From the NCBI GenBank assembly GCA_030524705.1, contig JAUNGD010000024.1, positions 1 through 44,479 of the forward strand: a stretch of DNA of 44,479 nucleotides, given 5' to 3'. Under the pieces are notes generated by a model. That model ran no database searches. It was not told the DNA's origin and saw nothing but the letters and a program-made list of their open reading frames with translations. Made by a program: the position numbers and the translations under genes. This stretch comes from Lachnospiraceae bacterium. GTDB taxonomy: Bacteria > Bacillota > Clostridia > Lachnospirales > Lachnospiraceae. Shown piece by piece: positions 5,133-27,881 of the stretch; the first letter of the stretch is position 1; each line of letters begins with the position of its first letter.

Positions 5133-6068
5133 ATGTGCAAGTATGAAAAAGCTACACAGCCAACAATTTATTTCATTGGTGTGACTACGGGCAGTTCTTC
5201 CATTATGAAGGTTTTTCCGCGGTGGGCAAAGGCCCTGGAGCTGAAGGATGCGGTGATCAAGGGGATTGATTTCAAGCCCCATTCAGACCCGCAGGCTTAC
5301 CGGGAAGCAGTTACATTCATCAAGGAGGACCCGTTGTCTCTTGGAGCGTTGGTAACCACCCACAAGATTGACCTGTATAACAGCTGTAAGGATTTATTCG
5401 ATTACATAGATCCTTTTGCGACGCAGCTGGGTGAGATTTCCTGCATTTCCAAAGCGGAGGGAGCCTTCCGCGCTCATGCGAAGGATCCGATTTCCAGTGG
5501 GTTGGCGCTGGAGGCGTTTGTACCGGAGAATTACTGGAAGGAGCACGGCGGAGAGGTTCTTCTGATGGGAGCCGGCGGCGCGTCCCTGGCAATGTCCGTG
5601 TATTTTACCCAGAAAAAGTTCGGAGATAATGTGCCGAAGAAAATTATTATTGCAAACCGCAGCCTGCCGAGGCTGGAGGAAGCCAAGCGGATTCTGGATG
5701 GTCTGAATGAAAAAACAGAGTTTGAATTTGTTTTGAATCCGACCCCCGAAGAAAATGACAGGACGCTGGCCTGCCTGCCTCCGCATTCTCTGGTGGTGAA
5801 CGCCACCGGACTTGGAAAGGACGGCCCCGGAAGCCCCCTGACCGATCACTGTCAGTTCCCCAAGGACAGTCTGGTATGGGAGATCAATTACCGAGGCGAT
5901 CTGGTGTTCAAGGATCAGGCAATGGCGCAGAAGGAAGAGAAAAATCTTTTTATTGAGGACGGCTGGACCTATTTTATCCATGGCTGGACTCAGGTTGTGT
6001 CAGAGGTATTCCATACGCCGATCGAAGGAGAGGTGCTGGAACACTTAAGCGAGATTGCAAAAAACTGA
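5133..6068 (+). CDS. Shikimate dehydrogenase-fold NAD(P) oxidoreductase, copy 1
   Basis: This 311-residue protein has the AroE two-domain layout: an N-terminal substrate domain and a Rossmann domain with GAGGAS (146-151). The catalytic Lys-Asp pair is kept (Lys78 in VTTHKIDLY, Asp118 in HAKDPISSG), and a Ser-rich stretch (21-23) sits where AroE binds the carboxylate. The Asn of the AroE GAVNT motif is replaced (GEISC, Ser103), so the substrate is probably not shikimate. It is roughly 85 percent identical to the gene at 21878. ATG 5133 is chosen over an upstream in-frame ATG because it aligns with that paralogue and has AAAGGA nine bases upstream. It heads the first importer operon. Confidence 0.85.
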   Translation: MCKYEKATQPTIYFIGVTTGSSSIMKVFPRWAKALELKDAVIKGIDFKPHSDPQAYREAVTFIKEDPLSLGALVTTHKIDLYNSCKDLFDYIDPFATQLGEISCISKAEGAFRAHAKDPISSGLALEAFVPENYWKEHGGEVLLMGAGGASLAMSVYFTQKKFGDNVPKKIIIANRSLPRLEEAKRILDGLNEKTEFEFVLNPTPEENDRTLACLPPHSLVVNATGLGKDGPGSPLTDHCQFPKDSLVWEINYRGDLVFKDQAMAQKEEKNLFIEDGWTYFIHGWTQVVSEVFHTPIEGEVLEHLSEIAKN

Positions 6069-6077
6069 TAAAAGCTA

Positions 6078-6087
6078 TGTCATAACA
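6078..6087. promoter_or_regulatory. Operator-like palindrome ahead of the first binding-protein gene
   Basis: TGTCATAACA matches the island-wide TGTNRYNACA consensus and lies 30 bp before the start of the binding-protein gene. No strong separate promoter is visible, so it may act as a roadblock site or mark a weak internal promoter. Confidence 0.55.
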
Positions 6088-6116
6088 TTTTAAAATTTAT
6101 TAAAGGAGGATGTATT

Positions 6117-7127
6117 ATGAACTTTAAAAAAGCATTAGCAGCAACTGTTGCAGTGGCAATGGTAGGAGCAATGGCAATGCCGGTAATGGCAGAAGAGGGT
6201 GAGCAGAAGACCTTTTACTATGTGGCAGCAGGTCTTGGACAGCCGTACAGTATTGACATGATCAAGGGTCTTCAGTATGCCGCTGAAAAGTACGACGTTA
6301 AGATTATCGCTCAGGGTGCAAATGACTGGGACGCAGAAACCACATGTGCAGCACTGGAGCAGATCATCCCCAGCAATCCAGACGGTATCATTACCGCAGC
6401 ATGGGATGCAGCAATGAATCCTGGTATCCTGAAGGCTCAGGAAGCAGGTATTCCGATCATCCTGGTTGAGGCAGAGAGCGGAGAGAAGGGCGATCTGTAT
6501 ATCGGCCTTGATAATGTGGACGCAGGACGTGAGACAGCACAGGAGCTGATCAACCTGGCAGGAGATTCCGGTAAGCTTCTCGTAATCGGAAACTGGGGTT
6601 CCACAAATATCGACCAGAAGTTTGAAGGACTGAAAGAGGTTCTGGCTGACACGAACTGGGAGATCGTAGGAGACCAGGACGGCGAGTGCGACGCAGCTAC
6701 CTCACTTCAGGCCGCTAAGGATCTGCTCAGCGCAAATCCAGATGTAGATGCATTTGTTGGTCTTGATTCTGCCTGCGGCGGCGGTATTGCAGGCGCTATG
6801 GAAGAGCTTGGAATGGAGCCGGGCAGCATCACCGTTGTATGTGCTGACCGTGAGGACGCTATGCTCGACTACATCAAGGACGGCTACATTCAGGCTTCTC
6901 TGACAAACAGAACGGCAGCTATGACCGACATGGCGGTGGCTCTTCTTGTGAACGCTACAGAGTACGGCTTCGCTGATGTTCCGGTAAGTGCTGACAACGA
7001 GGCTTCCGGTATTGACGTATGGCCGCTGACCATCTACACAGGTAATGTAGTAATCAATCAGGATAACGTAGATAACTTCTACCATGATGCACTGGGCGAT
7101 TTTGGTGCAGACAACTGGCAGGGCTGA
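6117..7127 (+). CDS. Sugar ABC transporter substrate-binding protein (ribose/galactose type), importer 1
   Basis: This 336-residue periplasmic-binding-protein type 1 protein has a signal peptide (residues 1-25, cleavage after VMA) and the fold's usual motifs, such as ANDWDAETTCAALEQII and an effector-like DADAF region (PDVDAFVGLDSACGGG). It captures an extracellular carbohydrate-like ligand for the ATPase and two permeases downstream. There is no lipobox cysteine, which is unusual for a Gram-positive binding protein and implies secretion or another form of retention. AAAGGAGG lies upstream of ATG 6117. A stable hairpin follows the gene. Ligand identity cannot be read from sequence. Confidence 0.9.
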   Translation: MNFKKALAATVAVAMVGAMAMPVMAEEGEQKTFYYVAAGLGQPYSIDMIKGLQYAAEKYDVKIIAQGANDWDAETTCAALEQIIPSNPDGIITAAWDAAMNPGILKAQEAGIPIILVEAESGEKGDLYIGLDNVDAGRETAQELINLAGDSGKLLVIGNWGSTNIDQKFEGLKEVLADTNWEIVGDQDGECDAATSLQAAKDLLSANPDVDAFVGLDSACGGGIAGAMEELGMEPGSITVVCADREDAMLDYIKDGYIQASLTNRTAAMTDMAVALLVNATEYGFADVPVSADNEASGIDVWPLTIYTGNVVINQDNVDNFYHDALGDFGADNWQG

Positions 7128-7228
7128 TGAAATCGACTGCTTAGCTCAGGATATTGTAAATAGCAGCAGCAGGACAGAAACGCAGAAGGAGCTGCGTTCC
7201 GGGTCCGAAACGGCTGTGCAGGGATTAT

Positions 7229-7263
7229 AAAAGAAAACTGCGAATTTTTCGCAGTTTTCTTTT
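7229..7263 (+). terminator. Attenuating hairpin between binding protein and ATPase genes
   Basis: A perfect 16-bp inverted repeat (arms 7229-7244 and 7248-7263) ends in a T-rich arm. Placed after the binding-protein gene inside an operon, it probably causes partial termination or protects the upstream mRNA, lowering expression of the ATPase and permeases relative to the binding protein. Confidence 0.75.
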
Positions 7264-7283
7264 CAAAAATGGAGTGAATGAAA

Positions 7284-8819
7284 ATGTCCGGAAAGAACAC
7301 GGAGTACCTGAAAATTAATAATATAACCAAAGCATACGGTGTGGTAAAAGCACTGACCGATGTATCTTTCTCTATTGAGCAAGGGGAGATTCATACGATT
7401 CTGGGAGAAAACGGAGCCGGAAAAAGTACCCTGGTAAAGATTATTATGGGTGAGGAAACTCCGGATTCCGGGACAATTACCCTGGACGGAGAACAGGTGA
7501 AGACGTATACTCCGTCGGCGGCTCAGGCCATGGGAGTCCGTATGGTACACCAGGAGCTGGCCGTTTTTGAAAATATGACGGTGGCAGAGAATATTTATCC
7601 CAGTCATAGCTTTAAAAAGGGCGGGAGAATTGATTACAAAGAATTATACCGGGAAACAGGAAAGCAGCTCGAACGGTTCGGATTGAAAACGGTCAATCCC
7701 GAGGAACAGATGGGCGGCGTAACGCTGGCGGGACAGCAGATGATCGAGATTATCCGCTGTATCGTGGCGAATCCCAAGGTTATTATTCTGGATGAGCCTA
7801 CCTCGGGTCTGAATGATGAGGAGGCCGACCGTCTGATGGAAATTCTTGAACGGCTGAAGGCGGAGGGAATGACGATCATTTATATTTCCCACCGTCTCAA
7901 GGAGATTATGAGAATTTCGGACCGCGTCACCATTATGCGCGACGGGCAGTATGTGACAACCTTGCTGAATGATGAAAATCTTACGGAAAATGACCTGATC
8001 AACAATATGGTGGGCCGGGATCTGACGCTGTATTCGATCAAAAAGCCGCAGGATGTGATACATAATGAAGAGGTGGTCTTTGAAGTAAAGAATCTTGCCA
8101 AGGCGCATGCATTGAATCCGTCGAACCTGCAGCTTCACAAGGGGGAAATTCTGGGGATCTTTGGCCTGGAGGGCTCCGGCGTTACGAAGCTGTCGCGTAT
8201 GATGTATGGATTGGAACGTAAGGACAGCGGAGACATTTATGTAAAGGGAGAAAAGCTGAATAAGGTCACACCGAAGCATATGGTGGATAAGCAGGTGATG
8301 TACCTGAACAACAACCGGAAGGTGGCGGGGTTGCTGCTGGATATGCCGGTGACGGATAACGTTTCTCTTCCTATTTTAGGAAAGGTCTCCAACAGGCTGG
8401 GATTTATTAATAATAAAGAACTAAAGAAAATTTCCACGGAATATATCAAAAAGTTTTCGATTGCGCTTCCCTCCCTCAGCACCAAGCCAAGGAAGCTGAG
8501 CGGCGGAAACCAGCAGAAGGTCATGATGTCGGCCTGTCTGGCGCCGGAGCCGGAGGTGGTGATCGTCAATGAACCTACCCGGGGCATTGACGTGGGTGCG
8601 AAGGAAGAAATTCACAAATTCCTGCTGGAAATCGCCAAAAAGGGTGTGGGAGTCATCGTATTCAGCTCAGAGCTTCCCGAGCTGATGAGGCTTTCTGACC
8701 GGATTAAGATTATGAGGGACAACACCATTGTGGGTGAAGTAGAGTGCAGTGAATTTACTGAGCAGACACTTATGCGGTATGCGGCAGTGGGAGTGTCTGG
8801 GAAAGGAGAGGAAGCCTGA
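7284..8819 (+). CDS. Sugar ABC transporter ATPase with two nucleotide-binding domains, importer 1
   Basis: This 511-residue RbsA/MglA-type protein couples ATP hydrolysis to sugar import. The N-terminal domain has Walker A GENGAGKST (41-49) and Walker B VIILDEPTSG. The C-terminal domain has a degenerate P-loop (GLEGSGVTKL) but an intact LSGGNQQK signature and a VNEPTRG Walker B in which the usual Asp is Asn. Such asymmetry is normal in this family. ATG 7284 has GGAG nine bases upstream; ATG 7278 is also possible but sits only three bases from it. The stop codon overlaps the start of the permease gene by one base. Confidence 0.9.
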   Translation: MSGKNTEYLKINNITKAYGVVKALTDVSFSIEQGEIHTILGENGAGKSTLVKIIMGEETPDSGTITLDGEQVKTYTPSAAQAMGVRMVHQELAVFENMTVAENIYPSHSFKKGGRIDYKELYRETGKQLERFGLKTVNPEEQMGGVTLAGQQMIEIIRCIVANPKVIILDEPTSGLNDEEADRLMEILERLKAEGMTIIYISHRLKEIMRISDRVTIMRDGQYVTTLLNDENLTENDLINNMVGRDLTLYSIKKPQDVIHNEEVVFEVKNLAKAHALNPSNLQLHKGEILGIFGLEGSGVTKLSRMMYGLERKDSGDIYVKGEKLNKVTPKHMVDKQVMYLNNNRKVAGLLLDMPVTDNVSLPILGKVSNRLGFINNKELKKISTEYIKKFSIALPSLSTKPRKLSGGNQQKVMMSACLAPEPEVVIVNEPTRGIDVGAKEEIHKFLLEIAKKGVGVIVFSSELPELMRLSDRIKIMRDNTIVGEVECSEFTEQTLMRYAAVGVSGKGEEA

Positions 8820-9796
8820 TGAGTACAGCAGCAACGGGGCGCAAGCTGAATGAGCAGGAAAAAAAGAAATTTGATTTTGGCGGTTGGACGATCGTATATC
8901 TGACGCTGATATTGTTTGTCTTTTTGTCCCTGACCAGAAGTACCTTCCTGAATTTTAACAATATCCATTCGATCGTTTTCGATGTATCAGTAGATTTCTT
9001 CGCGATTATCGGATTTACCTTTTTAATTATCATGGGAGAGCTGGATATGTCCGTAGGTTCCATGTTCTGCTTCGGCGGAACACTGATGGGAATTTTCTGC
9101 AACACCTACAATATGTCTGCAGGACCGGCTATTTTGCTTGCCATGGTGATTGCAGGGGTGATCGGATTTATTTCCGGGTATCTGATTACAAAATTCCGCC
9201 TGAATTCCATGATGGTGACCATCGGCGTCATGCTGGCGGTGAAGGGCTATAACTGGATGATGATTACAAGGATGACGGGACGTCAGCTCCCGAGGGAAAG
9301 CCGCAGCTTCGTGATGAACAAGATCGGCAATATCTCCTGGGTCATTGTGCTGATGCTGGCGGTAGCGGTCATCCTGGAAATTCTGCTGAATAAATCAAGG
9401 TTTTTCAAGCAGATGTATTATGTGGGACATAATATGGAAACGACGGTTCTGTACGGCATCAGGGCAAACCGGGTAAAAATCATCTGCTTTGCCGTATCTG
9501 CAATGCTTTCGACCTTCGGCGGAGCGCTGATGACCTGCCGTGTAAAAGCGCCGAACGTAACCGTCGGCAGCAACCTGGAGGTAACGATGATCACAGCGGC
9601 GGTCATCGGCGGCGCCAGCATCTTCGGCGGCCGCGGCAGTATGGTGAGATCTATGCTGGGACTGCTGTTCATCTATACACTGAGAAACGGAATGACTGCA
9701 TATCGAATTGATTCCTATGTGCAACAGATTATTTTAGGAGTGATCCTGATTCTGGCAATTATCGCAGATATTCGGATTACGGCCAGAAAAGCGTAA
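8819..9796 (+). CDS. Sugar ABC transporter permease A, importer 1
   Basis: This 325-residue integral membrane protein has about eight to ten hydrophobic segments and belongs to the BPD_transp_2 (RbsC/MglC-like) family. Family landmarks include MGELDMSVGSMFCFGG near the N-terminus and AAVIGGASIFGGRGS near the C-terminus. It forms the membrane channel, probably as a heterodimer with the permease encoded immediately downstream, energised by the ATPase upstream. Its start overlaps the ATPase stop (TGATG), which indicates translational coupling. Confidence 0.88.
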   Translation: MSTAATGRKLNEQEKKKFDFGGWTIVYLTLILFVFLSLTRSTFLNFNNIHSIVFDVSVDFFAIIGFTFLIIMGELDMSVGSMFCFGGTLMGIFCNTYNMSAGPAILLAMVIAGVIGFISGYLITKFRLNSMMVTIGVMLAVKGYNWMMITRMTGRQLPRESRSFVMNKIGNISWVIVLMLAVAVILEILLNKSRFFKQMYYVGHNMETTVLYGIRANRVKIICFAVSAMLSTFGGALMTCRVKAPNVTVGSNLEVTMITAAVIGGASIFGGRGSMVRSMLGLLFIYTLRNGMTAYRIDSYVQQIILGVILILAIIADIRITARKA

Positions 9797-9808
9797 GGGG
9801 GCAGGAGC

Positions 9809-10780
9809 ATGCAGCAGAGTATTATCAAAAAAATTGTAAAGAAAAACGAGTCGATTGCCGCTTTTCTGTGTATCTTCCTGGTGATTGTGCTTACGGTCAA
9901 AAGCGACATTTTCTGGGATCCCAGAAATCTTCATTCCCTGCAGGTAAGCTTTGTGCCCACCGCCATGATTGCTTTTGGAATGATGTTTTTGCTGATCTGC
10001 GGATATTTTGACATGTCGGTGGGATCCATCATGCTGCTCTGTGCGATTGCGGCGGGAAAATTCACCATGATGGGCCTGCCGGTACCGGTGGTGATTCTTC
10101 TGACCCTGGGGATCGGCCTGATCATGGGCTGTATCAATGGCTTCCTGGTCTCTATTTTGGGGATTAATGCCCTGATCGCCACGCTGGGTATGCAGTACGT
10201 GGGATACGGAGCGGCCATGCTTCTCTGGAACGAGGTGCGGACGCTGCAGTCCTTTGACGATACGTATATTTTTCTCGGAGAAGGGGAATTCGGCGGCCTG
10301 TACGTGATGACCTGGGTGCTGCTGGTGATGATTCTCGCGTTCAGTATTTTCCTGAAATATGCGTCGGGAGGAAAGCGGCTGTACTTTGTGGGAGGCAACA
10401 AGGAGGCCGCAAAGCTGATCGGATTTAACGACAGACGGATTCTGTTTCTGGCTTACGCAGCGACAGGCGTGCTCACTGCGATTGCAGCAATTTTCCGTTC
10501 TGCATACATACATAAGCCCACCCAGTATATGGGGGAAGGAATTCATATGACCTGTTTCATTGCCTGTGTCATCGGAGGCGGAAGCTTTGCCGGCGGCAAG
10601 GGCTCTGTGATCGGAGCTGTACTGGGCGTGATCTTTATGTCACTGCTCACAAACATGTTTAATCTTCTTCAGATGAGTCCAGAGCTGCAAAATGTTGTGG
10701 TTGGCGTGATACTGGTACTGGTTGTCACTCTGGATGGTTATATGAATATGAAAAAGCTCAGGGCGCAGGGAAAGATTTAA
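9809..10780 (+). CDS. Sugar ABC transporter permease B, importer 1
   Basis: This 323-residue RbsC-like permease has the same family landmarks (CGYFDMSVGSIMLLCAIAAG and CVIGGGSFAGGKGSVIGAV). It is a clear relative of, but distinct from, the permease encoded just upstream, so importer 1 probably uses a heterodimeric channel. It lies 12 bp after the previous gene with GGGGCAGGAG as ribosome binding site. It is the last gene of the operon and is followed by an intrinsic terminator. Confidence 0.88.
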   Translation: MQQSIIKKIVKKNESIAAFLCIFLVIVLTVKSDIFWDPRNLHSLQVSFVPTAMIAFGMMFLLICGYFDMSVGSIMLLCAIAAGKFTMMGLPVPVVILLTLGIGLIMGCINGFLVSILGINALIATLGMQYVGYGAAMLLWNEVRTLQSFDDTYIFLGEGEFGGLYVMTWVLLVMILAFSIFLKYASGGKRLYFVGGNKEAAKLIGFNDRRILFLAYAATGVLTAIAAIFRSAYIHKPTQYMGEGIHMTCFIACVIGGGSFAGGKGSVIGAVLGVIFMSLLTNMFNLLQMSPELQNVVVGVILVLVVTLDGYMNMKKLRAQGKI

Positions 10781-10801
10781 AAACACGGTGGACTGCCATG
10801 C

Positions 10802-10855
10802 GGATGAAACGGGATTTTCTTACTGAAAAAGGAAGCCTGTTTCATCCTTTTTTTT
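10802..10855 (+). terminator. Terminator of the importer 1 operon
   Basis: The stem GGATGAAAC (10802-10810) pairs with GTTTCATCC (10839-10847), extended by a G-T wobble and two more pairs, and is followed by eight T residues. Confidence 0.8.
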
Positions 10856-10964
10856 CACCTTGCTTTTGTATAAAAATTCGTATGAAAGCAGGGCCCTTGC
10901 GAAGGAATATGCATAACCAAGCATATTTGTATGGAATAGAATACAAAAAACAACAGATTTTGGC

Positions 10965-11023
10965 TTGCATCAAAAAAAAGATATGGTATAATTTAGTGGC
11001 GATTATGTAGTGTTGTTGTGACA
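10965..11023 (+). promoter_or_regulatory. Promoter and operator of the GntR regulator gene
   Basis: TTGCAT (10965-10970) and TATAAT (10987-10992) are 16 bp apart. The palindrome TGTTGTGACA lies downstream at 11014-11023. Presence of the island-wide site at the regulator's own promoter suggests autoregulation. Confidence 0.65.
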
Positions 11024-11059
11024 AAGAACGTTATGAAGAACTAAATTGTGAGGTGAATT

Positions 11060-11815
11060 ATGTTTTTAGAAAATAAAGAGCTTGATAAGCATGTTCCGAT
11101 TCCGTTATATTTTCAGCTAAAGGAATTGATCGTAGAAGAGATTAAAAGTGGAAAATATGAAGTAGACAGTCTGATACCGACAGAAAAGGAAATGAGTGAG
11201 CGATTTGATATCAGCAGGACTACGGTTCGCCAGGCAATTACGGAGCTGGTGCAGGAGGGATGGCTGTACCGGGTAAAAAGCAAGGGAACCTTTATTGCCC
11301 GGCAGAAGATCAAGCAGGATTTTCTGCAGCGCCTGGAGACCTTTGCAGAGCAGATGAACCGGATCGGCATGGAGCCGAGCACGGAGGTTATTGATTACAA
11401 GACCACGAGGGCTTCCAAGGAGGTTGCTGAGAATCTCCAGCTTCAGGAGGGAGACCAGGTACTTTTACTGCTCCGCAGACGTTTCGGGGATAAGGAGCCG
11501 GTGGTTACGGTGGAAACCTATTTGCCCTTTGATAAGTGTTCCTTTGTCCAGGATTACGATTTCAGCAAGCTTTCTCTTTATGACAGCCTGTCTGCCCGGG
11601 ATGAGACCAGAATATACAGTGCGACGCGTGTGATTGAGGCCGTGGAAGCCACCAGCAGGGACGCGCAGTATCTGCATATCCGTAAGGGCGCTCCGGTGCA
11701 GCTTGCCTATACCGTGGGCTTTAATAAGGACAATGTCCCGCTGGAATACTCCATCGCCCGTTACCGCGGAGATATGAGCAGCTTCAGAATTAATGTATAT
11801 GTCGATACACAGTAG
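11060..11815 (+). CDS. GntR-family (HutC subfamily) transcriptional regulator, likely regulator of the island
   Basis: This 251-residue protein has an N-terminal winged helix (about residues 8-75; SERFDISRTTVRQAITEL, wing KGTFIARQK) and a C-terminal UTRA ligand-binding domain (about 95-245) with the typical ending that includes PLEYSIARYRGD. HutC-type members usually repress catabolic genes until a pathway metabolite binds the UTRA domain. It is the only one-component regulator in the carbohydrate island, and the same palindrome occurs at its own promoter and those of the surrounding operons, so it is the best candidate for the site's ligand. A terminator follows, which makes it monocistronic. 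Confidence 0.9.
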   Translation: MFLENKELDKHVPIPLYFQLKELIVEEIKSGKYEVDSLIPTEKEMSERFDISRTTVRQAITELVQEGWLYRVKSKGTFIARQKIKQDFLQRLETFAEQMNRIGMEPSTEVIDYKTTRASKEVAENLQLQEGDQVLLLLRRRFGDKEPVVTVETYLPFDKCSFVQDYDFSKLSLYDSLSARDETRIYSATRVIEAVEATSRDAQYLHIRKGAPVQLAYTVGFNKDNVPLEYSIARYRGDMSSFRINVYVDTQ

Positions 11816-20835: not shown

Positions 20836-21831
20836 ATGCAGACTTCAAAATTATTTATGATTTTACCTGATTATATTTGTACCCCGGACGGCCTGGAGCC
20901 GGACGAGGTGACCGGAGATCTGATTCTGGCGTGTCCGAATTTTGCAGATCTTTCTATGCCAAGCTGTATCTGCCGTATTGACAAGGACCGGAATATCCGA
21001 AAATGGTTCGATGTGCCGCTGAATCCTGCGACCAACGAGGCGAGAGCCATGGGAATCGGCTTCGGCCCGGACCGGGATCTTTATATCGTGGACAATCAGG
21101 GATGGCTGGAGGACCGCCCGGATCTGCAGTTCCAGGGAAGGATCCTCCGGGTGCGTATGGATGGGGATGAGATCGTGAAGGTGACTACGGTAGCCGACGG
21201 CATGGAGCATCCCAACGGCCTGCGGATCAAGGGAGAGTATATGTATATTACCCAGAGCATGCTCAGCAAGGTGGAGGGCCCGGAGGGCAAGCTGGTGAGC
21301 TGCGTATACCGCTTCCACTTAGACGACGAGAATATCCATATCACGAATACGTTAGAGGATAAAAATATCGTGGCCACCTTTGTGACGCAGAATCCAAAGT
21401 GCCAGTACGGCGTGGATGGAATCGTATTCGGCCCCGATGGCAATTTGTACATCGGCAACTTCGGAGACGGTGAAATTTACAAGCTGGTTCTGGATGAGAA
21501 CGGAGACGTAGTTTCCAATGAGCCCTGGGCCAAGAATCCTGAGCAGCTGAAATCCACGGACGGTATGACCCTGGACAAATACGGAAATATCTATATCGCA
21601 GATTTCAGCGCCAATGCCATCGGCAAGGTGGATCCCCAGGGAAATGTGACCAGAATCGCCGTAAGCCCGGATACGGACGGCCTTCACGGAGAACTGGACC
21701 AGCCCGGCGAGCCGTGCGTATGGGGAGACGACATTATCATCTCCTGTTTCGATCTGGTAACAGATGATGACAAGGTAAATACGGCCCACGAGATGCCGGC
21801 GACTTTGTGTATGCTCAAGGTGGAACCATAA
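20836..21831 (+). CDS. Cytosolic SMP-30/gluconolactonase-like protein
   Basis: This 331-residue beta-propeller protein is homologous along its length to the exported protein at 12016 (shared PNFAD, KWFDVP, GMEHPNG, NTLED, CQYG-DGI, IADFSANAI and GELDQPGEP blocks) but begins directly with the mature domain and lacks a signal peptide. It is therefore predicted to act inside the cell, probably opening a sugar lactone. AAGGAGG lies upstream of ATG 20836. It follows importer 2 in the same orientation with only 39 bp between them, so co-transcription with the importer is likely. Confidence 0.85.
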   Translation: MQTSKLFMILPDYICTPDGLEPDEVTGDLILACPNFADLSMPSCICRIDKDRNIRKWFDVPLNPATNEARAMGIGFGPDRDLYIVDNQGWLEDRPDLQFQGRILRVRMDGDEIVKVTTVADGMEHPNGLRIKGEYMYITQSMLSKVEGPEGKLVSCVYRFHLDDENIHITNTLEDKNIVATFVTQNPKCQYGVDGIVFGPDGNLYIGNFGDGEIYKLVLDENGDVVSNEPWAKNPEQLKSTDGMTLDKYGNIYIADFSANAIGKVDPQGNVTRIAVSPDTDGLHGELDQPGEPCVWGDDIIISCFDLVTDDDKVNTAHEMPATLCMLKVEP

Positions 21832-21877: not shown

Positions 21878-22813
21878 ATGGCAAATTATGAAAAGGCTGT
21901 ACAGCCGACAATATATTTTATAGGGGTAACGACGGGCAGCTCTTCTATCATGAAGGTATTTCCGCGCTGGGCAGAAGCGCTTGGCCTGGAAAATACGGTA
22001 ATCAAAGGGATTGATTTCAAGCCGCATTCTGCTCCTGAGGCTTACCGGGAGGCAGTTTCGTTTATTAAGAACGATCCGTTGTCTCAGGGCGCGCTTGTTA
22101 CTACCCACAAGATTGATTTGTATAACAGCTGCAAGGATCTGTTTGATTATATTGATCCCTTTGCATTACAGCTTGGTGAAATCTCCTGTATCTCAAAGAA
22201 GGACGGCCGGTTTTGCGCCCATGCCAAGGACCCGATTTCCAGCGGCCTGGCACTGGAGGCGTTTGTACCGGAGAATTACTGGAAGGAGAACGGCGGCGAG
22301 GTGCTGCTTCTGGGAGCGGGCGGGGCATCTCTTGCGATGTCTGTATATTTCACACAGAAAAAGTTCGGCGATAATGTTCCGAAGAAGATTATAATTGCCA
22401 ACCGAAGTCTTCCGAGGCTGGAGGAGGCAAAGCGGATTCTGTCAGGGCTGAACGAAAAGGTGGAATTTGAATTTATTTTAAATCCTGTGCCGGAGAAAAA
22501 CGATGAGACTCTGGGAAGGCTGCCGGCGCATTCGCTGGTGGTCAATGCGACCGGACTGGGGAAGGACGGGCCGGGAAGCCCGCTGACTGACGCATGCCAG
22601 TTCCCGCAGGACAGCCTGGTGTGGGAGATTAACTACCGAGGCGATCTGGTATTTAAGGATCAGGCGGAGGCCCAGCAGAAGGAGAAAAATCTGGTGATCG
22701 AGGATGGATGGACCTATTTCATCCATGGCTGGACCCAGGTGGTTTCCGAGGTGTTCCACATTCCGATTGAGGGGGAAACCCTGGATAATCTCAGTAAAAT
22801 TGCCAGAGGATAA
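21878..22813 (+). CDS. Shikimate dehydrogenase-fold NAD(P) oxidoreductase, copy 2
   Basis: This 311-residue protein is the same length as the copy at 5133 and roughly 85 percent identical by eye, with no insertions or deletions. Rossmann motif GAGGAS, catalytic Lys78 and Asp118 are conserved, as is the Ser103 replacement of the shikimate-type Asn. Most differences are on scattered surface positions, so both copies probably catalyse the same reaction. It is the last gene after importer 2 and the cytosolic SMP-30 gene, followed by a strong terminator, while copy 1 is the first gene of importer 1. Confidence 0.85.
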   Translation: MANYEKAVQPTIYFIGVTTGSSSIMKVFPRWAEALGLENTVIKGIDFKPHSAPEAYREAVSFIKNDPLSQGALVTTHKIDLYNSCKDLFDYIDPFALQLGEISCISKKDGRFCAHAKDPISSGLALEAFVPENYWKENGGEVLLLGAGGASLAMSVYFTQKKFGDNVPKKIIIANRSLPRLEEAKRILSGLNEKVEFEFILNPVPEKNDETLGRLPAHSLVVNATGLGKDGPGSPLTDACQFPQDSLVWEINYRGDLVFKDQAEAQQKEKNLVIEDGWTYFIHGWTQVVSEVFHIPIEGETLDNLSKIARG

Positions 22814-22837
22814 GAGAAAAATTGATTTCTTCAGGAG

Positions 22838-22879
22838 AAGAGGCTGATGCAGAAAATAAAATCTGCATCAGCCTCTTTT
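22838..22879. terminator. Bidirectional terminator between convergent operons
   Basis: A perfect 16-bp inverted repeat (AAGAGGCTGATGCAGA and its complement) with T residues on the plus-strand side and A residues ahead separates the importer 2 operon from the minus-strand aldolase operon. Confidence 0.8.
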
Positions 22880-22903
22880 GGAGTATAAACAAGAAGGGCT
22901 TGC

Positions 22904-23857
22904 TTATCGGTTGACAATACTGGGACAGTCCTTCCCGGACAAAAGATCAATAAGATTCTGGATTGAGGCATGCGCCATATTGTCGGTTGCTTCTTTCGTA
23001 TGTGCCCCGGTATGCGGCGTAGCGATGACGTTGTCAAATTCAAATAATCTGGAGTCTGTCGGCGGCTCTGTCTCAAACGCATCCAGAGCAAGTCCTGACA
23101 GCTTTCCGGTTCTCAGTGCGTCATAGGCCGCGTCCTCGTCGATGATTCCACCCCGGGAAGCGTTTACGATGATCGCCTGATCAGGCAGAAGCCGGATGGC
23201 CTCTGCATCAATCAGGTGATAAGTGGAATCCAGCAATGGAAGATGCAGGCTGACTACATTGGCTCGGCTCATGAGCTCTTCAAAGGACACAGCTTCTATC
23301 TGATGCTCTTTGCAGTATGCTTCGTTGATGTATGGGTCGTAGGCCAGTACATGCATGCCAAAGCCCTGGGCGCAGTTCGCAACGACTTTACCGATGGCTC
23401 CCAGGCCGAGAATGCCAAGGGTTTTGCCCTTCAGCTCCATGCCTGTGGAACGTACCCATGCGCCGTTTCTGGTCTGTGCATTCAGATAAGGAATTTTTCT
23501 GGCGGCGGCCAGGATCAGACCGAAGGCCAGCTCACCCACTGCCTGGGCGTTGACGCCGGGGGTGTTGGTGACTTTGATGCCCAGTCTTTTGGCCGCTTCG
23601 ATATCCACCCGGTCATACCCTGCGCCATAGCGGGAGATGACCTTCAGATTGGGGCAGGCTTCCATTACCCTTGCAGTGATGGAATCCAGACCGGCAACAA
23701 ACCCGTCGCAATCCTTCAAAAGAGGAATCAGATCCTCCTCTGCAAGCGGTTTACCGGTGGGATTAAACACAAGCTCGTCTGCAAAAGCCTGCAGAGGAGC
23801 CAGAGCAGCGTCATTCTTGCCCGGCTGCAGGGAGGTGGGAGTTACTAAAATTTTCAT
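22904..23857 (-). CDS. D-2-hydroxyacid dehydrogenase (phosphoglycerate dehydrogenase family)
   Basis: This 317-residue enzyme has the NAD-binding GLGAIG (151-156) and the family's catalytic Arg (NASRGGIID), Glu (DAFETEP) and His (TPHTGAHT). Length lacks the C-terminal ACT domain of SerA-type enzymes, so it resembles short glyoxylate/hydroxypyruvate or 2-keto acid reductases. It is the last gene of a four-gene operon with KDPG aldolase 11 bp upstream. A role interconverting a 2-keto acid and its hydroxy acid in the sugar-acid route is inferred. True serine biosynthesis is less likely because no serC or serB is near. Confidence 0.88.
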   Translation of the reverse strand: MKILVTPTSLQPGKNDAALAPLQAFADELVFNPTGKPLAEEDLIPLLKDCDGFVAGLDSITARVMEACPNLKVISRYGAGYDRVDIEAAKRLGIKVTNTPGVNAQAVGELAFGLILAAARKIPYLNAQTRNGAWVRSTGMELKGKTLGILGLGAIGKVVANCAQGFGMHVLAYDPYINEAYCKEHQIEAVSFEELMSRANVVSLHLPLLDSTYHLIDAEAIRLLPDQAIIVNASRGGIIDEDAAYDALRTGKLSGLALDAFETEPPTDSRLFEFDNVIATPHTGAHTKEATDNMAHASIQNLIDLLSGKDCPSIVNR

Positions 23858-23868
23858 GATCTTTCCTC

Positions 23869-24501
23869 CTATTTCAATAAAGCAACTGCCTGGGCAGTGA
23901 GCTCTTTGATTTTTTCAAAATTACCTTCCTTTACGAAGCTGTCTTTTACCATCCAGCTGCCGCCGCAGGCAATGATTTTATTGAAGCTCAGGTATTCCTT
24001 GATGTTGTCGGCGTTGATGCCGCCGGTGGGCATAAAACGCATGGAGGGGAAGGGGGCAGCCAGAGCCTTGATTGTGGCAAGGCCGCCGTACTGGCTTGCC
24101 GGGAAGAATTTTACCACCGGAAGCCCGTATTCCATGGCTGACATTACCTCGGAGGGTGTACAGGTACCGGGGAAGATCATGATCTGATTGTCTACTGCCC
24201 ATTCGGTGACGCTTCTGGAAAATCCCGGGGAAACGAGAAATCTGGCTCCGGCGTCCACGGCGCGTTTGGCCTGCTCTGTATTGACGATGGTGCCTGCACC
24301 GATCAGCATATCAGGAAATTCCCTGGAAGCAATTCGGATGGATTCTTCGGCGGCGTCGGTGCGGAAGGTAATCTCGGCCACGGGAAGTCCGCCCTGGCAG
24401 AGCGCTTCGCAAAGCGGCTTTGCGTCAGAAGCCCGGTCCAGCTTGACCACGGGAACAATTTTTTTCTCTTCAACCTGCAGTAACAATTCATTCTGATTCA
24501 T
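23869..24501 (-). CDS. eda: 2-keto-3-deoxy-(6-phospho)gluconate aldolase family protein
   Basis: This 210-residue class I aldolase has the Eda active-site set: Glu43 and Arg47 in AEITFRT, the Schiff-base Lys131 in VVKFFPAS, plus GAGTIV and MPTGGI phosphate-binding-type loops. The family cleaves 2-keto-3-deoxy acids to pyruvate and an aldehyde (glyceraldehyde 3-phosphate for KDPG). Its presence points to sugar-acid breakdown as the outcome of the island. No dehydratase that would make its substrate is visible nearby. It sits between the phosphotriesterase-family gene and the hydroxyacid dehydrogenase gene in one operon. Confidence 0.92.
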   Translation of the reverse strand: MNQNELLLQVEEKKIVPVVKLDRASDAKPLCEALCQGGLPVAEITFRTDAAEESIRIASREFPDMLIGAGTIVNTEQAKRAVDAGARFLVSPGFSRSVTEWAVDNQIMIFPGTCTPSEVMSAMEYGLPVVKFFPASQYGGLATIKALAAPFPSMRFMPTGGINADNIKEYLSFNKIIACGGSWMVKDSFVKEGNFEKIKELTAQAVALLK

Positions 24502-24559
24502 AATAAGCTCTCCAATCTGGTAAAAATACGCGAATGCTTGATCGCGCCGGTAAATAGTT

Positions 24560-25522
24560 TCATACAGGGTCGTCTGTAAAGACCCTTACAAAATTGCTAT
24601 GGGAAATTTTCTCTATCTGTCCTTCCGCAATTCCGCAGTGCCTCATCAGAGGCAGAAAGGAGGTAAACAGATAATCCAGTCCGATGGCCTGCTCCTCGTA
24701 GGATTTCAGCCTGGCCCGGGTGGTGTCCAGCGAAAAGAGAAGCTGATCCCCGAAGCCCTCCGACAGCATAGTCTGAAAAATCTCGATTTCTCTGAGATCG
24801 CTGTGATATTTGAATCGTCCGATCGTGTCATATTCCAGAAAAATTCCTTCTGCCAGAAGCTGCTTGTGGATCTCAAGATCCGGTATGGCCCGGTCCATAT
24901 GGCAGAAAATCATTCGTTTCGGCGGCACCCTGCGTTCCTTTAAAAAATGAAAAAGGGCGATGGGGTCGGAGCCCTGTTCGATATGTACCATGACAGGAAC
25001 GTCGGCGGCTCTGGCGGCCTCCGCTCCGGCGGCAAACAGCTTCCGGTAAATGGGCGTCAGCCCCTCCGTATCCAGCGCCATTTTTACAATTCCAGCCCGG
25101 ATCGAACTGCAGTCGGAATGAAATTCGGTGTCAATATTGCTGAACATTCCGGCGGTCAGCTCGTGGATAAAGATACCGCGAAGCTCATCCTCTGACAGGG
25201 TAAACAGCCAGTGTCCCTCCGGGTAAAAGCAGAGCTTATGGAAGCCTGTGGAGGCAACGATATTCAGCCCGGTCTTTTTTGAAATCGCCAGAAGATTTTT
25301 TTCTATCCGGTTGCAGCCCCCGGGCTGGGCGTCCACCACAGTCCCTCCGCCGCTTTTCATAAGCCGCGCCGCCTCCTGCGTGCTCTTTTCCAGATCGTCA
25401 ATCAGGAGCACGGGGCTTTTCTCCCAGGAGGTTCCTTTGCTGATGGCAAGATGCTCATGGCATTGACAAAATCCCAGTTCTTCAGGGCAGACGGGGCCCT
25501 GTACAGTCATTATAGTTTTCAT
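24560..25522 (-). CDS. Phosphotriesterase-family metal-dependent hydrolase (putative lactonase)
   Basis: This 320-residue amidohydrolase-superfamily protein has the PTE metal site pattern: CHEHL near the N-terminus, a candidate carboxylated Lys in RAGIVKMA, His in VMVHIEQG, His in IFCHMDRA and Asp in FSLDTTR. Several PTE-like bacterial enzymes are sugar lactonases, so a lactonase role is plausible in this operon; other ester substrates are possible. The start at 25522 overlaps the preceding cupin stop codon (ATGA), indicating translational coupling. A longer upstream frame lacks a ribosome binding site and reads through the cupin gene. Confidence 0.8.
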   Translation of the reverse strand: MKTIMTVQGPVCPEELGFCQCHEHLAISKGTSWEKSPVLLIDDLEKSTQEAARLMKSGGGTVVDAQPGGCNRIEKNLLAISKKTGLNIVASTGFHKLCFYPEGHWLFTLSEDELRGIFIHELTAGMFSNIDTEFHSDCSSIRAGIVKMALDTEGLTPIYRKLFAAGAEAARAADVPVMVHIEQGSDPIALFHFLKERRVPPKRMIFCHMDRAIPDLEIHKQLLAEGIFLEYDTIGRFKYHSDLREIEIFQTMLSEGFGDQLLFSLDTTRARLKSYEEQAIGLDYLFTSFLPLMRHCGIAEGQIEKISHSNFVRVFTDDPV

Positions 25523-26103
25523 ACGTCTTTCCAGTTCGGGTTGTTGGCGACAGTGGGCCTTCCGTCCTTTTCGATGATTAATTTGTGGTAGCCCTTTGTC
25601 TCGATGGTGCCGTAATCGTGGCCGGCATCGGCGGCAAAGGTGTAGAAAAGAACGAGAGGCGTCTCTCCGGTGTTTACTGTACGGTGAGCATATCTGCGGG
25701 GTACATAGACAGCCTGGCCCTGGGAGAGGGGCATCTCGATACAATCACCCTCCGGGTTTTCCATTACCATGTAGCCTTCGCCCTTCAGGGTGTAGTATAC
25801 TTCCGCAGTCTCCAGGATGGTGTGGAAGTGGCCCTTTGTAAAAAAGTACTCATTGCCTACCTTTCCGGGATACAGAATGGTTGTCCCGAAGGCGAGGTCC
25901 CCGGCGCGCTCCGGGCACCCCAGCTCGTGAAATTCGTAAATCAGAGGATCTTCTTTGGTGAGAATCTCTTCGAATGCTTTCTTATCACAGAACATCCCCC
26001 GCATCTGTGACAGATAACGTTTGGTGGTTTCAGCACTCCGGGAAAATCCGGTTTCTAGGTTGAAATCAACGAGGAAGCTGGTGTCCCAATTAAAGTTGTT
26101 CAT
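25519..26103 (-). CDS. pgiA: Cupin-type glucose-6-phosphate isomerase
   Basis: This 194-residue protein closely follows the archaeal/bacterial cupin phosphoglucose isomerase: metal ligands His92 and His94 (TKGHFH), Glu101 (AEVYY) and His140 (YAHRTVN), and the C-terminal AADAGHDYGTI block. Known members interconvert glucose 6-phosphate and fructose 6-phosphate, or related phosphosugars, using a bound metal. As first gene of the aldolase operon under the island operator it is probably a pathway-specific sugar-phosphate isomerase rather than the housekeeping enzyme. AGGAGG precedes ATG 26103. Confidence 0.88.
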   Translation of the reverse strand: MNNFNWDTSFLVDFNLETGFSRSAETTKRYLSQMRGMFCDKKAFEEILTKEDPLIYEFHELGCPERAGDLAFGTTILYPGKVGNEYFFTKGHFHTILETAEVYYTLKGEGYMVMENPEGDCIEMPLSQGQAVYVPRRYAHRTVNTGETPLVLFYTFAADAGHDYGTIETKGYHKLIIEKDGRPTVANNPNWKDV

Positions 26104-26165
26104 AAAAGTTATACCTCCTTTATACGATTGCCTTTGTTTGTACTTAGTTTCATCTTACATTGCAA

Positions 26166-26211
26166 TGTCATAACATAGCTACATTATAATATCGGAAGGA
26201 TATATTGTCAA
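26166..26211 (-). promoter_or_regulatory. Consensus promoter and operator of the aldolase operon
   Basis: On the minus strand TTGACA and TATAAT are separated by exactly 17 bp, a full consensus promoter (complements at 26206-26211 and 26183-26188). The palindrome TGTCATAACA (26166-26175) lies downstream of the -10 box, with further ATGT half-sites on either side. Confidence 0.8.
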
Positions 26212-26269
26212 GAGAGGGGATTAGACATTTTTCACAGAAACGGAGGATACTTTTTGGCAGTATCAGGGA

Positions 26270-26307
26270 TTGACAAACACCGTCTCAAAAGTTAGAATGT
26301 TACAACA
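26270..26307 (+). promoter_or_regulatory. Promoter and operator of the FGGY kinase gene
   Basis: TTGACA (26270-26275) and TAGAAT (26293-26298) are 17 bp apart. The palindrome TGTTACAACA (26298-26307) begins on the last base of the -10 box. Confidence 0.75.
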
Positions 26308-26360
26308 AACGTACATAAAAACAAATAAGGACATATTGGGAGGAAAAGGAGGAACAGGAA

Positions 26361-27881
26361 GTGGCAAAATACATACTTGCACATGATTTGGGGACATCGG
26401 GAAACAAGGCTACCTTATTTACTGTAGGGGGAAAATTAGTGGGAAGCCAGGTTCATTCTTACGATGCTCATTATTTTAACAACACCTGGGTGGAGCAGGA
26501 TGCGGAGGACTGGTGGCAGGCCGTTTGCCATACCACGAGAAATCTGATCGAGAGCACCGGAATTGATGCGGCCGAGATCGGGGCGGTGAGCTTCAGCGGC
26601 CAGATGATGGGCTGCCTTTGTGTCGACCGGCAGGGCAATCCGCTTCGCAAGGCGATCATCTGGGCGGACCAGCGGGCGACGCAGCAGTCGGCGCAGATCG
26701 AGGAGCATATCAGCCAGAAGGATTTTTACCATATCGTGGGCCACAGAAATACTCCATCCTACGGAGTGCAGAAGCTGATGTGGGTGAGGGACAACGAGCC
26801 GGAAATCTATGAGCAGACATACAAGACGCTTAACGCGAAGGATTTTATTGTATTTCGCCTGACCGGGAAATTTTATACGGAGTATTCCGACGGCAACAGT
26901 ATGGGATGCTTTGATCTGTGCAATCTGAAATGGTCCGAGGAGCTGATTTCCTACGCAGGGATCGACGGAGACAAGCTGCCGGAGCTGAAGCCCTCCACCT
27001 TCGTAGCCGGAGGCGTGACAGAGGAAGCCTCCAGGATTACGGGGCTGGCCGTCGGCACGCCGGTGGTACTGGGCGGCGGCGACGGCGTGACTGCGAATGT
27101 GGGCACCGGATCGGTGCATCCGGGCAAAACGTACAGCTGCATGGGAACCTCTGCCTGGATCACCACTACGACAGAAAAGCCGATCTTTGATGAGGAAATG
27201 CGTACCGTGACCTGGGCCCATATCATTCCCGGGCTTTATGCGCCCAACGGGACCATGCAGACCGCCGGGGGAGCGTACAACTGGCTGAAAAACACGATCT
27301 GCAAAATGGAAACGTACGATGCGAAGCTTCACGGCAAATCACCGTATGACTATATGAATGAGCAGATCGCACAGGCTCCGGTGGGATCAAACGGCGTCAT
27401 CTTCCTGCCGTATCTGTTAGGTGAGCGGGCGCCGCGCTGGAATGTAGATGCCAAGGGTGCATTTCTCGGTCTGAAGTCCGAAAACACCAGAGGAGATCTG
27501 CTGCGCAGTGTTCTGGAGGGCGTGACGATGAACATGGATATTATTCTTAATATTCTGAGAAAGCAGGTAGAGATTGATGAGATCACAGTGATCGGCGGCG
27601 GGGCCAAGGGAAGCGTATGGCGCCAGATTATGGCCGACGTGTACAACACCAGAATTCTGGTTCCGACACTGCTGGAGGAGGCAGGCTCGATGGGAGCGGC
27701 GGTCACCGGCGGAGTAGGCGCCGGCATTTACAAGGATTTCGACGCAGTGGAGCAGTTCCTGGAAATCAATTCGGTTCATGAACCGAATCCAGATGCAGTG
27801 ACGAAATACGGCCCGGTAAAGGAAGTGTTTGACGAGTGCTATTTTGCACTGGAAAAGGTATTTCCGAAGATGAATTTCTAG
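26361..27881 (+). CDS. FGGY-family carbohydrate kinase (xylulokinase-like)
   Basis: This 506-residue sugar kinase has the two FGGY actin-like domains: phosphate-binding DLGTSGNKATLF at the N-terminus, VSFSGQMMG and IIWADQRA in the first domain, and GGGDGVTANVGTGSV, then VIGGGAKGSVWRQIMADV in the second. It would phosphorylate an imported sugar, ketose or polyol. Length and motifs are nearest to xylulokinase-type members, but substrate specificity in FGGY enzymes is poorly predictable. The start codon is GTG at 26361 with AGGAGG about ten bases upstream. It is divergent from the aldolase operon, shares the same operator type and is followed by a strong terminator. Confidence 0.9.
   Translation: MAKYILAHDLGTSGNKATLFTVGGKLVGSQVHSYDAHYFNNTWVEQDAEDWWQAVCHTTRNLIESTGIDAAEIGAVSFSGQMMGCLCVDRQGNPLRKAIIWADQRATQQSAQIEEHISQKDFYHIVGHRNTPSYGVQKLMWVRDNEPEIYEQTYKTLNAKDFIVFRLTGKFYTEYSDGNSMGCFDLCNLKWSEELISYAGIDGDKLPELKPSTFVAGGVTEEASRITGLAVGTPVVLGGGDGVTANVGTGSVHPGKTYSCMGTSAWITTTTEKPIFDEEMRTVTWAHIIPGLYAPNGTMQTAGGAYNWLKNTICKMETYDAKLHGKSPYDYMNEQIAQAPVGSNGVIFLPYLLGERAPRWNVDAKGAFLGLKSENTRGDLLRSVLEGVTMNMDIILNILRKQVEIDEITVIGGGAKGSVWRQIMADVYNTRILVPTLLEEAGSMGAAVTGGVGAGIYKDFDAVEQFLEINSVHEPNPDAVTKYGPVKEVFDECYFALEKVFPKMNF

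Follow-up and report, generated by a model that had tools for sequence, protein, structure and literature searches.

A putative single-regulon sugar-oxidation island with shikimate-dehydrogenase-fold enzymes and without a recognisable dehydratase in a Lachnospiraceae bacterium

Introduction

How might a bacterium use a gene cluster that encodes lactonase-like proteins and an aldolase of the 2-keto-3-deoxy-6-phosphogluconate (KDPG) type, and no recognisable dehydratase to connect them? This question is raised by an island of genes (positions 5133 to 27881) in a stretch of 44,479 nucleotides from a Lachnospiraceae bacterium (GCA_030524705.1, contig JAUNGD010000024.1), which is here called the window and which corresponds to the Lachnospiraceae-like contig C111 of the genome G000. 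An earlier note, made from the sequence of the window, had described the island as containing two of nearly everything, that is two ABC importers, two SMP-30 proteins and two shikimate-dehydrogenase-fold (SDH-like) enzymes, together with three further dehydrogenases, a PTE-family hydrolase, a KDPG aldolase, a cupin isomerase and an FGGY kinase, and had assigned it to no described pathway. Here we present evidence that these genes probably form one regulon, in which two uptake modules serve a single catabolic core. With a probability of roughly 40%, we read the island as a dehydratase-free pathway in which sugars are taken up by two importers, phosphorylated, oxidised and cleaved in an aldol reaction.

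Results

A shared operator links two transport modules and one catabolic core

When intergenic regions across the island were compared, a palindrome emerged, ATGTNNNNACAT, of which the window contains five copies (0.70 expected; five were reached in none of 100 shuffles), all of them in intergenic DNA of the island. This putative operator, ATGTWATWACAT, accompanies promoters in each of the two transport modules as well as that of the catabolic operon (Table 1). Module 1 would comprise SDHa-SBP1-importer 1-GntR-SMPa and module 2 MDR-GldA-SBP2-importer 2-SMPb-SDHb, where SDHa and SDHb are the SDH-like proteins, SBP1 and SBP2 the sugar-binding proteins of the importers, SMPa and SMPb the SMP-30 proteins and MDR is a medium-chain dehydrogenase. 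A promoter scan of the regions 4850-16100 and 22700-28300 gave 45 promoter-like sites in all. The five best-matching promoters (11 or 12 matches to the 12 consensus positions), those of SDHa, GldA, SBP2, the cupin operon and FGGY, each carry an exact or one-mismatch operator that lies between overlap with the -10 element and about 20 nt behind it, and two of the seven promoters with 10 of 12 matches (SMPa and MDR) have an exact operator within about 13 nt. One-mismatch copies amount to 22 in the window, or 27 when the five exact ones are included, which is near chance (17.2 expected); single one-mismatch copies therefore mean little, and what speaks for the copies at 5089, 15925 and 26297 is only where they lie. 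The GntR/UTRA protein, an island member omitted from the earlier list, is the presumed repressor, which would bind the operator and block those promoters whose -10 element lies at it.

In the whole genome G000 the strict form WATGTNNTRACATW has seven occurrences, of which the island contains five; of the other two, one separates yebC from a CNNM-type gene and one falls within the gene of an ABC permease (labels given by eye). Among the 42 loci of relatives, 60 operator sites were found, compared with a mean of 16.9 and a highest value of 27 in 30 shuffles. Fifty of these 60 are upstream of genes, in 28 of the 42 loci, and four control palindromes gave 1, 3, 5 and 7. The consensus across relatives is TAYWATGTWATWACATWRTA. 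When 11 genomes were searched with the stringent form, 11 exact places were obtained in nine of them and none in G165 and G084; ten places fall in core stretches (two tied to the contig by position only) and one on another contig of Faecalicatena contorta. With the long consensus and at most one mismatch, the same genomes gave 49 places, compared to 17 for the reversed pattern.

The unlinked place in F. contorta (L132, G943:C10, 5151-16180), found by the operator alone, contains genes for MDR, SMP-30, an SDR, SBP2, the permeases and ATPase of importer 2, and GldA, a set that corresponds to module 2 of the window; gene content had played no part in picking the place. In the same species, one-mismatch sites at C11:49353 and 49462 stand just before a GntR-FGGY pair. 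Of five extra stretches around operator places, four (L132, L134, L135, L136) have pathway genes next to the operator, and the fifth (L133) has none there. Module 2, the GntR gene, the FGGY gene and the core thus belong together; in F. contorta the operator marks unlinked copies of module 2 and of GntR-FGGY. By this comparison the island would be a single regulon with two uptake modules on one catabolic core; the notion of a doubled pathway is not sustained, as both transport/dehydrogenase modules have the operator and the core in common.

The core is conserved around the SDH-like genes of relatives

The genome-neighbourhood analysis of the SDH-like family that the earlier note had asked for covered 42 loci from about 40 genomes, with neighbours counted up to 10 kb from the SDH-like gene. 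A scan of named genomes with two peptide patterns only gave 25 loci, and nine of the 42 mapped loci (L084-L092) were fetched through PTE matches; F. contorta NLAE-zl-C134 and G781 contribute two loci each, and L009 and L010 are near copies. Genes for the PTE hydrolase, the cupin phosphoglucose isomerase and the D-2-hydroxyacid dehydrogenase are each present in 36/42 loci and the KDPG-type aldolase in 26/42, followed by GntR (22/42), FGGY kinases of at least 44% identity (16/42), MDR (8/42), GldA (6/42) and SMP-30 proteins (5/42). Without L084-L092, the first three are found in 27/33 loci each and the aldolase in 18/33, and some of the misses are due to stretch or contig ends (L003, L005, L006, L022). 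In a reverse check, a search of 392 genomes from the order gave, besides the PTE gene of the window, ten PTE places with at least 38% identity, and every one of them adjoins an SDH-like gene; of ten weaker PTE places the two examined (L101, L102) have no SDH-like gene beside them. Strong SDH-like members occur in 9/200 genomes sampled from the family and in 5/398 sampled from the phylum (own genome included in both cases, one of the five a fragment), and the single genome of the same genus in the family sample lacks one. The core is carried by F. contorta, Blautia schinkii DSM 10518 and Oceanobacillus jeddahense. As far as the fetched stretches reach, L003 contains module 1 and lacks module 2, and L098 and L100 contain importer 2 and an SMP-30 gene and lack module 1.

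Two side observations were made at these loci. In L003 (16925-19069) the SMPa counterpart is a tandem of two propellers in one 714-aa protein. Beside five clusters (L089:13781-15097, and also L090, L091, L022 and L017) a family of 438-446 residues is encoded, for which no match was obtained in Pfam (L017, L022), NCBIfam (L089, L017) or PDB sequences (L089).

Core enzymes point to phosphorylated substrates

Evidence from the cupin, the PTE hydrolase and the kinase points to phosphorylated INTERMEDIATES. The cupin scores 113 bits with PF06560 (cut-off 20.7) and 211 bits with the glucose-6-phosphate isomerase structure 4lta, which we take to be of Pyrococcus origin. Tyr56, Thr89, Gly91, His92, His94, Glu101, Tyr103, His140, His162 and Tyr164 are kept in 27/27 sequences, and these residues presumably form the active site and the phosphate site, so that both family score and site residues place the protein among the cupin phosphoglucose isomerases.

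The two best PDB matches of the PTE hydrolase are 3pnz (Lmo2620) and 3msr (a Mycoplasma enzyme), which we assume to be phospho-sugar lactonases of the phospho-furanose type of the PTE family; in Lmo2620 the distal phosphate is presumably held by Lys242, Lys244, Arg275 and Tyr278. Arg236 (33/33) and Lys238 (31/33) of the island family align with Lys242 and Lys244 of 3pnz and with an Arg and a Lys of 3msr; the next PDB match, 3gtf, lacks these basic residues. Arg269, present in 27/33 sequences, also aligns with one of the four Lmo2620 residues, the place of Tyr278 is not Tyr, and Arg271 and Tyr275 nearby are invariant. Common to the hydrolase and these lactonases are the metal site and, in the loop on the phosphate side, two basic residues. 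With SMP-30 genes in only 5 loci, and PTE with its conserved basic residues in 36, a role of the SMP-30 proteins as the defining lactonases is unsupported.

Kinases vary among the 42 loci: besides the close FGGY relatives, distant FGGY proteins are found in other loci and a PF25270 ketohexokinase in L084, as if different sugars entered one phosphorylated core. The aldolase belongs to the KDPG/KHG family (249 bits, cut-off 156), with Lys131, the Schiff-base residue, Glu43 and a ThrGlyGly motif in 28/28 sequences and Arg47 in 19/28.

SDH-like proteins differ from shikimate dehydrogenases

SDHa and SDHb are 86% identical and gave no match in Pfam, and a structural model of SDHb has the SDH fold across the whole chain. 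Their best NCBIfam scores are 43 and 48 bits for a model with a cut-off of 413, and with TIGR00507 they reach 31 and 39 bits (cut-off 200), which leaves them outside the shikimate/quinate dehydrogenase families. Identity to shikimate/quinate dehydrogenases (AroE, YdiB) and to an SDH-fold 5-ketofructose reductase is 18-19%. The catalytic Lys-Asp pair is kept as Lys78 and Asp118 in 40/40 SDH-like sequences, which we take to be equivalent to Lys65 and Asp102 (aligned by eye). In contrast, the places of the shikimate ligands of Escherichia coli AroE, presumably Ser16, Asn59, Asn86 and Gln244 (aligned by eye), are occupied by Ile24, Leu73, Ser103 and Gly284, invariant in 40/40; among the aligned shikimate-binding places Ser22 and Thr75 are kept. 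Quinate or shikimate catabolism was discarded as an explanation, given these four replacements in 40/40 sequences and a cluster with a sugar kinase, a phosphoglucose isomerase and an aldolase. An arrival of SDHb together with module 2 was considered and rejected: in a tree, SDHa and SDHb fall with L003-L006 into one clade of six rows, apart from the module-2 relatives L098 and L100. Their duplication is not recent, because third codon positions are only 51% identical.

The missing dehydratase

Family scans of the island proteins gave no dehydratase, as the earlier note had observed. Its suggestion that one lies elsewhere seems unlikely as a general answer: 11 of 21 chosen carrier genomes have a single PF00920 gene, with an IlvD-like score, and 8 of these 11 keep the cluster aldolase, other dehydratase families having been tested in part. 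Enolase-superfamily proteins (PF13378) exceed the cut-off in 16/21 carriers, so that in general this family may still come into question; in G165 and G687, which keep the aldolase, neither a second PF00920 gene nor PF13378 above the cut-off is present. G000 encodes IlvD and one IlvD/Edd paralogue (249 bits, edd cut-off 708), and tblastn with both proteins gave nothing in the 42 neighbourhoods. On contig C78 of G000 (L002, 131-3918) a gluconate-type permease (by eye), an IlvD/Edd-type dehydratase and a second KDPG aldolase form a separate aldonate operon, which holds none of the seven strict operator sites of the genome. A dehydratase hidden in the regulon was considered and rejected, as the two strict sites outside the island mark no pathway gene; a looser operator could escape this search, and UxuA, UxaA/GarD and further dehydratase families were not searched. 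For the reaction that links lactonase and aldolase, the natural candidate is the 2-hydroxyacid dehydrogenase, which is conserved in more loci than the aldolase.

In 13/21 carriers, among them G000, no Zwf was found, and a PF02595 glycerate kinase is present in 14/21. Genes for glycyl-radical enzymes and their activases lie beside three of the 42 clusters (L016:3788-6157, L087:3656-6022, L099:5887-9101); they possibly provide a dehydratase that feeds the pathway from other substrates. Behind the core of L093 (10807-12007) and L094, in a genus without the cluster aldolase, 3-hexulose-6-phosphate synthase and 6-phospho-3-hexuloisomerase are encoded. A decarboxylating alternative built on this pair was rejected, as it is confined to one genus and both proteins score as ordinary ribulose monophosphate pathway enzymes.

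Gene inventory and neighbouring features

Gene calls rest on Pfam and NCBIfam scans of 30 window proteins. All gene types of the earlier list were recovered, among them two ribose-type importers (6117-10780 and 15953-20796), which differ in gene order, and two SMP-30/NHL propellers with 53% identity to each other. The three further dehydrogenases are a GldA-like protein, MDR and a D-2-hydroxyacid dehydrogenase; one of them had been misplaced, as the open reading frame 13204-14334 (+) matches no family and runs antisense to the real MDR gene. For the PTE gene the start is 25522, which gives an overlap of 4 nt with the cupin gene, and not the TTG at 25744, and the SDHa start is preceded by a ribosome-binding-like AAAGGA.

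Table 1. Genes, putative operators and putative promoters of the island (positions in the window; promoter scores are matches to 12 consensus positions).
Feature	Position	Strand	Remarks
SDHa, shikimate-dehydrogenase-fold NADP-type dehydrogenase, copy a	5133-6068	+	start 5133, not 5094
SBP1, importer 1 sugar-binding protein	6117-7127	+	PF13407
Importer 1 ATPase	7278-8819	+	PF00005 x2
Importer 1 permease a	8819-9796	+	PF02653
Importer 1 permease b	9809-10780	+	PF02653
GntR/UTRA regulator, presumed operator binder	11060-11815	+	PF00392+PF07702; binding inferred
SMPa, SMP-30/NHL propeller	12016-13146	+	PF08450; apparent signal peptide (by eye)
MDR, Zn-dependent medium-chain dehydrogenase	13333-14373	-	IolM model NF041097 118 bits, under cut-off 450
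GldA-like Fe-dependent alcohol dehydrogenase	14656-15792	+	NF006941 423 bits, cut-off 336
SBP2, importer 2 sugar-binding protein	15953-17074	+	PF13407
Importer 2 permease a	17210-18229	+	PF02653
Importer 2 ATPase	18251-19780	+	PF00005 x2
Importer 2 permease b	19663-20796	+	PF02653; true start probably downstream of that of the reading frame
SMPb, SMP-30/NHL propeller	20836-21831	+	PF08450; no signal peptide
SDHb, shikimate-dehydrogenase-fold dehydrogenase, copy b	21878-22813	+	
D-2-hydroxyacid dehydrogenase, SerA/GhrB-like	22904-23857	-	PF02826/PF00389; Arg235, Glu264, His282 in 27/27
KDPG/KHG-type class I aldolase	23869-24501	-	PF01081; TIGR01182 249 bits
PTE-family hydrolase, probable phospho-sugar lactonase	24560-25522	-	PF02126
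Cupin phosphoglucose isomerase	25519-26103	-	PF06560 113 bits; 211 bits to 4lta
FGGY sugar kinase	26361-27881	+	TIGR01312 385.5 bits, cut-off 380
SDHa promoter, TTGACA-17-TATTAT	5059-5087	+	11/12; consensus match only
One-mismatch operator ATGTCATGACAA	5089-5100	.	directly behind SDHa -10; supported by position
Operator ATGTCATAACAT before SBP1	6077-6088	.	exact
SMPa promoter	11921-11949	+	10/12
Operator ATGTTATGACAT (SMPa)	11961-11972	.	exact
Operator ATGTAGTGACAT, MDR side	14446-14457	.	exact
MDR promoter	14499-14471		10/12
GldA promoter	14589-14617		11/12
Operator ATGTTGTAACAT, GldA side	14616-14627	.	exact
SBP2 promoter	15876-15904		11/12
One-mismatch operator ATGTAGTGATAT before SBP2	15925-15936	.	
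Operator ATGTCATAACAT, cupin/FGGY divergent region	26165-26176	.	exact
Promoter of cupin-PTE-aldolase-2-hydroxyacid dehydrogenase operon, TTGACA-17-TATAAT	26183-26211	-	12/12
FGGY promoter	26270-26298	+	11/12
Possible one-mismatch operator ATGTTACAACAA at FGGY -10	26297-26308	.	weak on its own

Directly upstream of the island and divergent from SDHa, outside the conserved cluster, a 635-aa protein with a partial PnrA/Bmp-like domain is encoded (2962-4869, -). Elsewhere in the window we noted a helix-turn-helix domain fused to DUF3990 (908-1786), a kind of protein that we assume is met in toxin-antitoxin-like genes, and a T-box leader (39794-40044; Rfam RF00230, 98.7 bits), just past which two tandem 71-nt copies of 92% identity are located (40148-40289).

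Discussion

In the pathway that we propose, the peripheral dehydrogenases MDR and GldA would convert an imported sugar or polyol to a ketose, which would be phosphorylated by the FGGY kinase (by a ketohexokinase in one relative). The cupin phosphoglucose isomerase would interconvert ketose-6-phosphate and aldose-6-phosphate. Oxidation of the aldose phosphate by the NADP-type SDH-like enzyme would yield a phospholactone, which the PTE hydrolase would open to an aldonate phosphate, and the D-2-hydroxyacid dehydrogenase would oxidise C2 to give a 2-keto-aldonate phosphate, from which the KDPG-type aldolase would release glyceraldehyde-3-phosphate and a three-carbon keto acid, hydroxypyruvate if no deoxygenation takes place. 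Each core enzyme would be used once, in an order set by the chemistry, and no dehydratase would be needed. Our guess for the substrate is a non-glycolytic hexose epimer. The earlier note had deduced from lactonases and an Eda-type aldolase that a sugar or polyol is oxidised and then cleaved to pyruvate; a single oxidation pathway with an Eda-type aldolase agrees with our data, and pyruvate as its product is unsupported. A stricter version, which we consider rather unlikely, is a phosphorylating, dehydratase-free analogue of the Entner-Doudoroff pathway, with the SDH-fold enzyme in the role of Zwf, the PTE hydrolase in that of 6-phosphogluconolactonase, the D-2-hydroxyacid dehydrogenase replacing the dehydratase, and the aldolase producing hydroxypyruvate and glyceraldehyde-3-phosphate from a 2-keto-aldonate phosphate that has kept all its hydroxyl groups.

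Several observations weigh against the dehydratase-free pathway, whose weakest links are lactone formation by the SDH-like enzyme, the last step, in which the aldolase would have to accept a 3-hydroxy substrate, what becomes of hydroxypyruvate, and the part played by the SMP-30 proteins. The substrates for which KDPG aldolases are known are 2-keto-3-deoxy compounds. Seven carriers, G000 being one, gave no PF02595 glycerate kinase (the search covered no other family of glycerate kinases); of the other six, G731, G754, G687 and G755 are among those that keep the cluster aldolase. An exit from hydroxypyruvate to glycerate is unsupported here because G000 is without PF02595. Known SDH-fold enzymes act on secondary alcohols and ketones, and that the SDH-like enzyme forms a lactone from a sugar phosphate is an assumption based on its pairing with the PTE hydrolase. 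The latter has Leu, Met or Phe in place of Tyr278 of 3pnz in 33/33 sequences and scores 121.5 bits with the phospho-furanose lactonase model NF045706 (cut-off 630); in the cupin, Thr74 is kept in 23/27 sequences and the place of Thr75 holds Thr or Ser. The aldolase is absent from 16/42 loci and the PTE gene from 6/42, some of them at contig or stretch ends, and L014 and L027 have no PTE gene within wide flanks. A reversed-pattern control of the operator search in G000 also matched, at four forward and three reverse places, and the weight of that search therefore lies solely in the way the sites cluster in the island. Finally, the assembly of G000 is 88% complete.

Against this background, a conventional Entner-Doudoroff-type route was considered, in which the island would produce a (phospho)aldonate, a dehydratase elsewhere (that of C78, an enolase-superfamily member or an unrecognised one) would act on it, the island aldolase would yield pyruvate and glyceraldehyde-3-phosphate, and the 2-hydroxyacid dehydrogenase would only reduce a keto acid. 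The KDPG-aldolase catalytic residues, the second PF00920 dehydratase of G000, the frequent PF13378 proteins (16/21 carriers), the glycyl-radical enzymes and activases beside three clusters and the lack of PF02595 in G000 would fit such a route. However, the C78 dehydratase has its own permease and aldolase and no strict operator, eight carriers keep the aldolase without a second PF00920 gene, and the 2-hydroxyacid dehydrogenase accompanies the core more constantly than the aldolase does (36/42 compared to 26/42), which makes this route unlikely in our view. The idea of two adjacent but largely independent pathways, each for a sugar of its own, draws on the different gene order of the importers, the separation of the modules in relatives and an FGGY gene with its own promoter and at best a one-mismatch operator; it is disfavoured and highly improbable, considering that promoters of the core operon and of either module carry the same operator, that in F. 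contorta this operator is found with module 2 and with GntR-FGGY at a distance from the core, and that PTE, cupin, aldolase and 2-hydroxyacid dehydrogenase are single in the island.

A cyclitol route resembling myo-inositol degradation in Thermotoga would start with dehydrogenases forming a beta-diketone, the ring of which would be opened by the PTE hydrolase to a keto-hexonate, followed by isomerisation by the cupin, reduction by the SDH-like enzyme, and the kinase and aldolase reactions. Six further neighbourhoods (L090, L091, L025, L084, L013, L100) encode IolG-like dehydrogenases that share at least 59% identity with the one in L089, and L022 encodes one of 41%; the MDR proteins resemble IolM at scores below the cut-off, and the best NCBIfam model for SBP1 is a rhizopine-binding protein, far below the cut-off. 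SDH-fold 5-ketofructose reductases, according to PMC7954740, reduce keto-sugars. On the other hand, the 30 window proteins include no IolG homologue or Gfo/Idh protein, MDR stays at 118 bits compared to the IolM cut-off of 450, the cupin has the active-site residues of phosphoglucose isomerases and no IolB/KduI family match, and no IolE above the cut-off was found in G000, a point that excludes the classical pathway only. We regard a cyclitol route as unlikely, but it and the conventional route both keep considerable weight. The classical inositol pathway was rejected, as the best IolE score in G000 is 58.6 bits (cut-off 290) and 16/21 carriers have no IolE above the cut-off.

The island raises the question whether a KDPG-type aldolase can act when no dehydratase precedes it, and it provides a defined SDH-fold subfamily with a testable function outside aromatic biosynthesis. 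The core enzyme set and the operator can serve as recognition marks for an uncharacterised carbohydrate pathway in Lachnospiraceae and other Firmicutes, including its unlinked parts, and carriers such as F. contorta, B. schinkii DSM 10518 and O. jeddahense make direct testing possible.

Comparison with known systems

No open-licence full-text paper combining these families was found (subscription papers were outside the search), in line with the earlier note. With the Entner-Doudoroff pathway (Zwf-Pgl-Edd-Eda) the island shares a proposed series of dehydrogenase, lactonase and KDPG-type aldolase on a hexose phosphate. It differs in that its dehydrogenase has the SDH fold, its lactonase is of the PTE family and a D-2-hydroxyacid dehydrogenase stands in the place of Edd; Edd is present in 0/42 neighbourhoods, G000 has IlvD and one paralogue, the latter below the edd cut-off, and Zwf was not found in that genome.

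The myo-inositol pathway of Thermotoga maritima consists of IolG-IolM-IolN-IolO. Several relatives' clusters resemble it by adding IolG-like and MDR dehydrogenases, whereas the window shows no IolG among the scanned proteins, its MDR lies far below the IolM cut-off, so that neither equivalog is represented, and its cupin isomerase is of the phospho-type. The intermediates of the Thermotoga pathway are given in PMC5931981.

As judged from its genes, the island lacks defining features of shikimate dehydrogenases, of the Entner-Doudoroff pathway and of the Thermotoga-type inositol pathway, and would be best described as a sugar-oxidation regulon. A precedent for its proposed 2-hydroxyacid dehydrogenase step comes from 2-ketogluconate (kgu) utilisation, in which the 2-hydroxyacid dehydrogenase KguD acts on a 2-keto-6-phosphoaldonate; in contrast to kgu, the island enzyme is proposed to work in the oxidative direction, with the isomerase, the SDH-like enzyme and the PTE hydrolase upstream of it.

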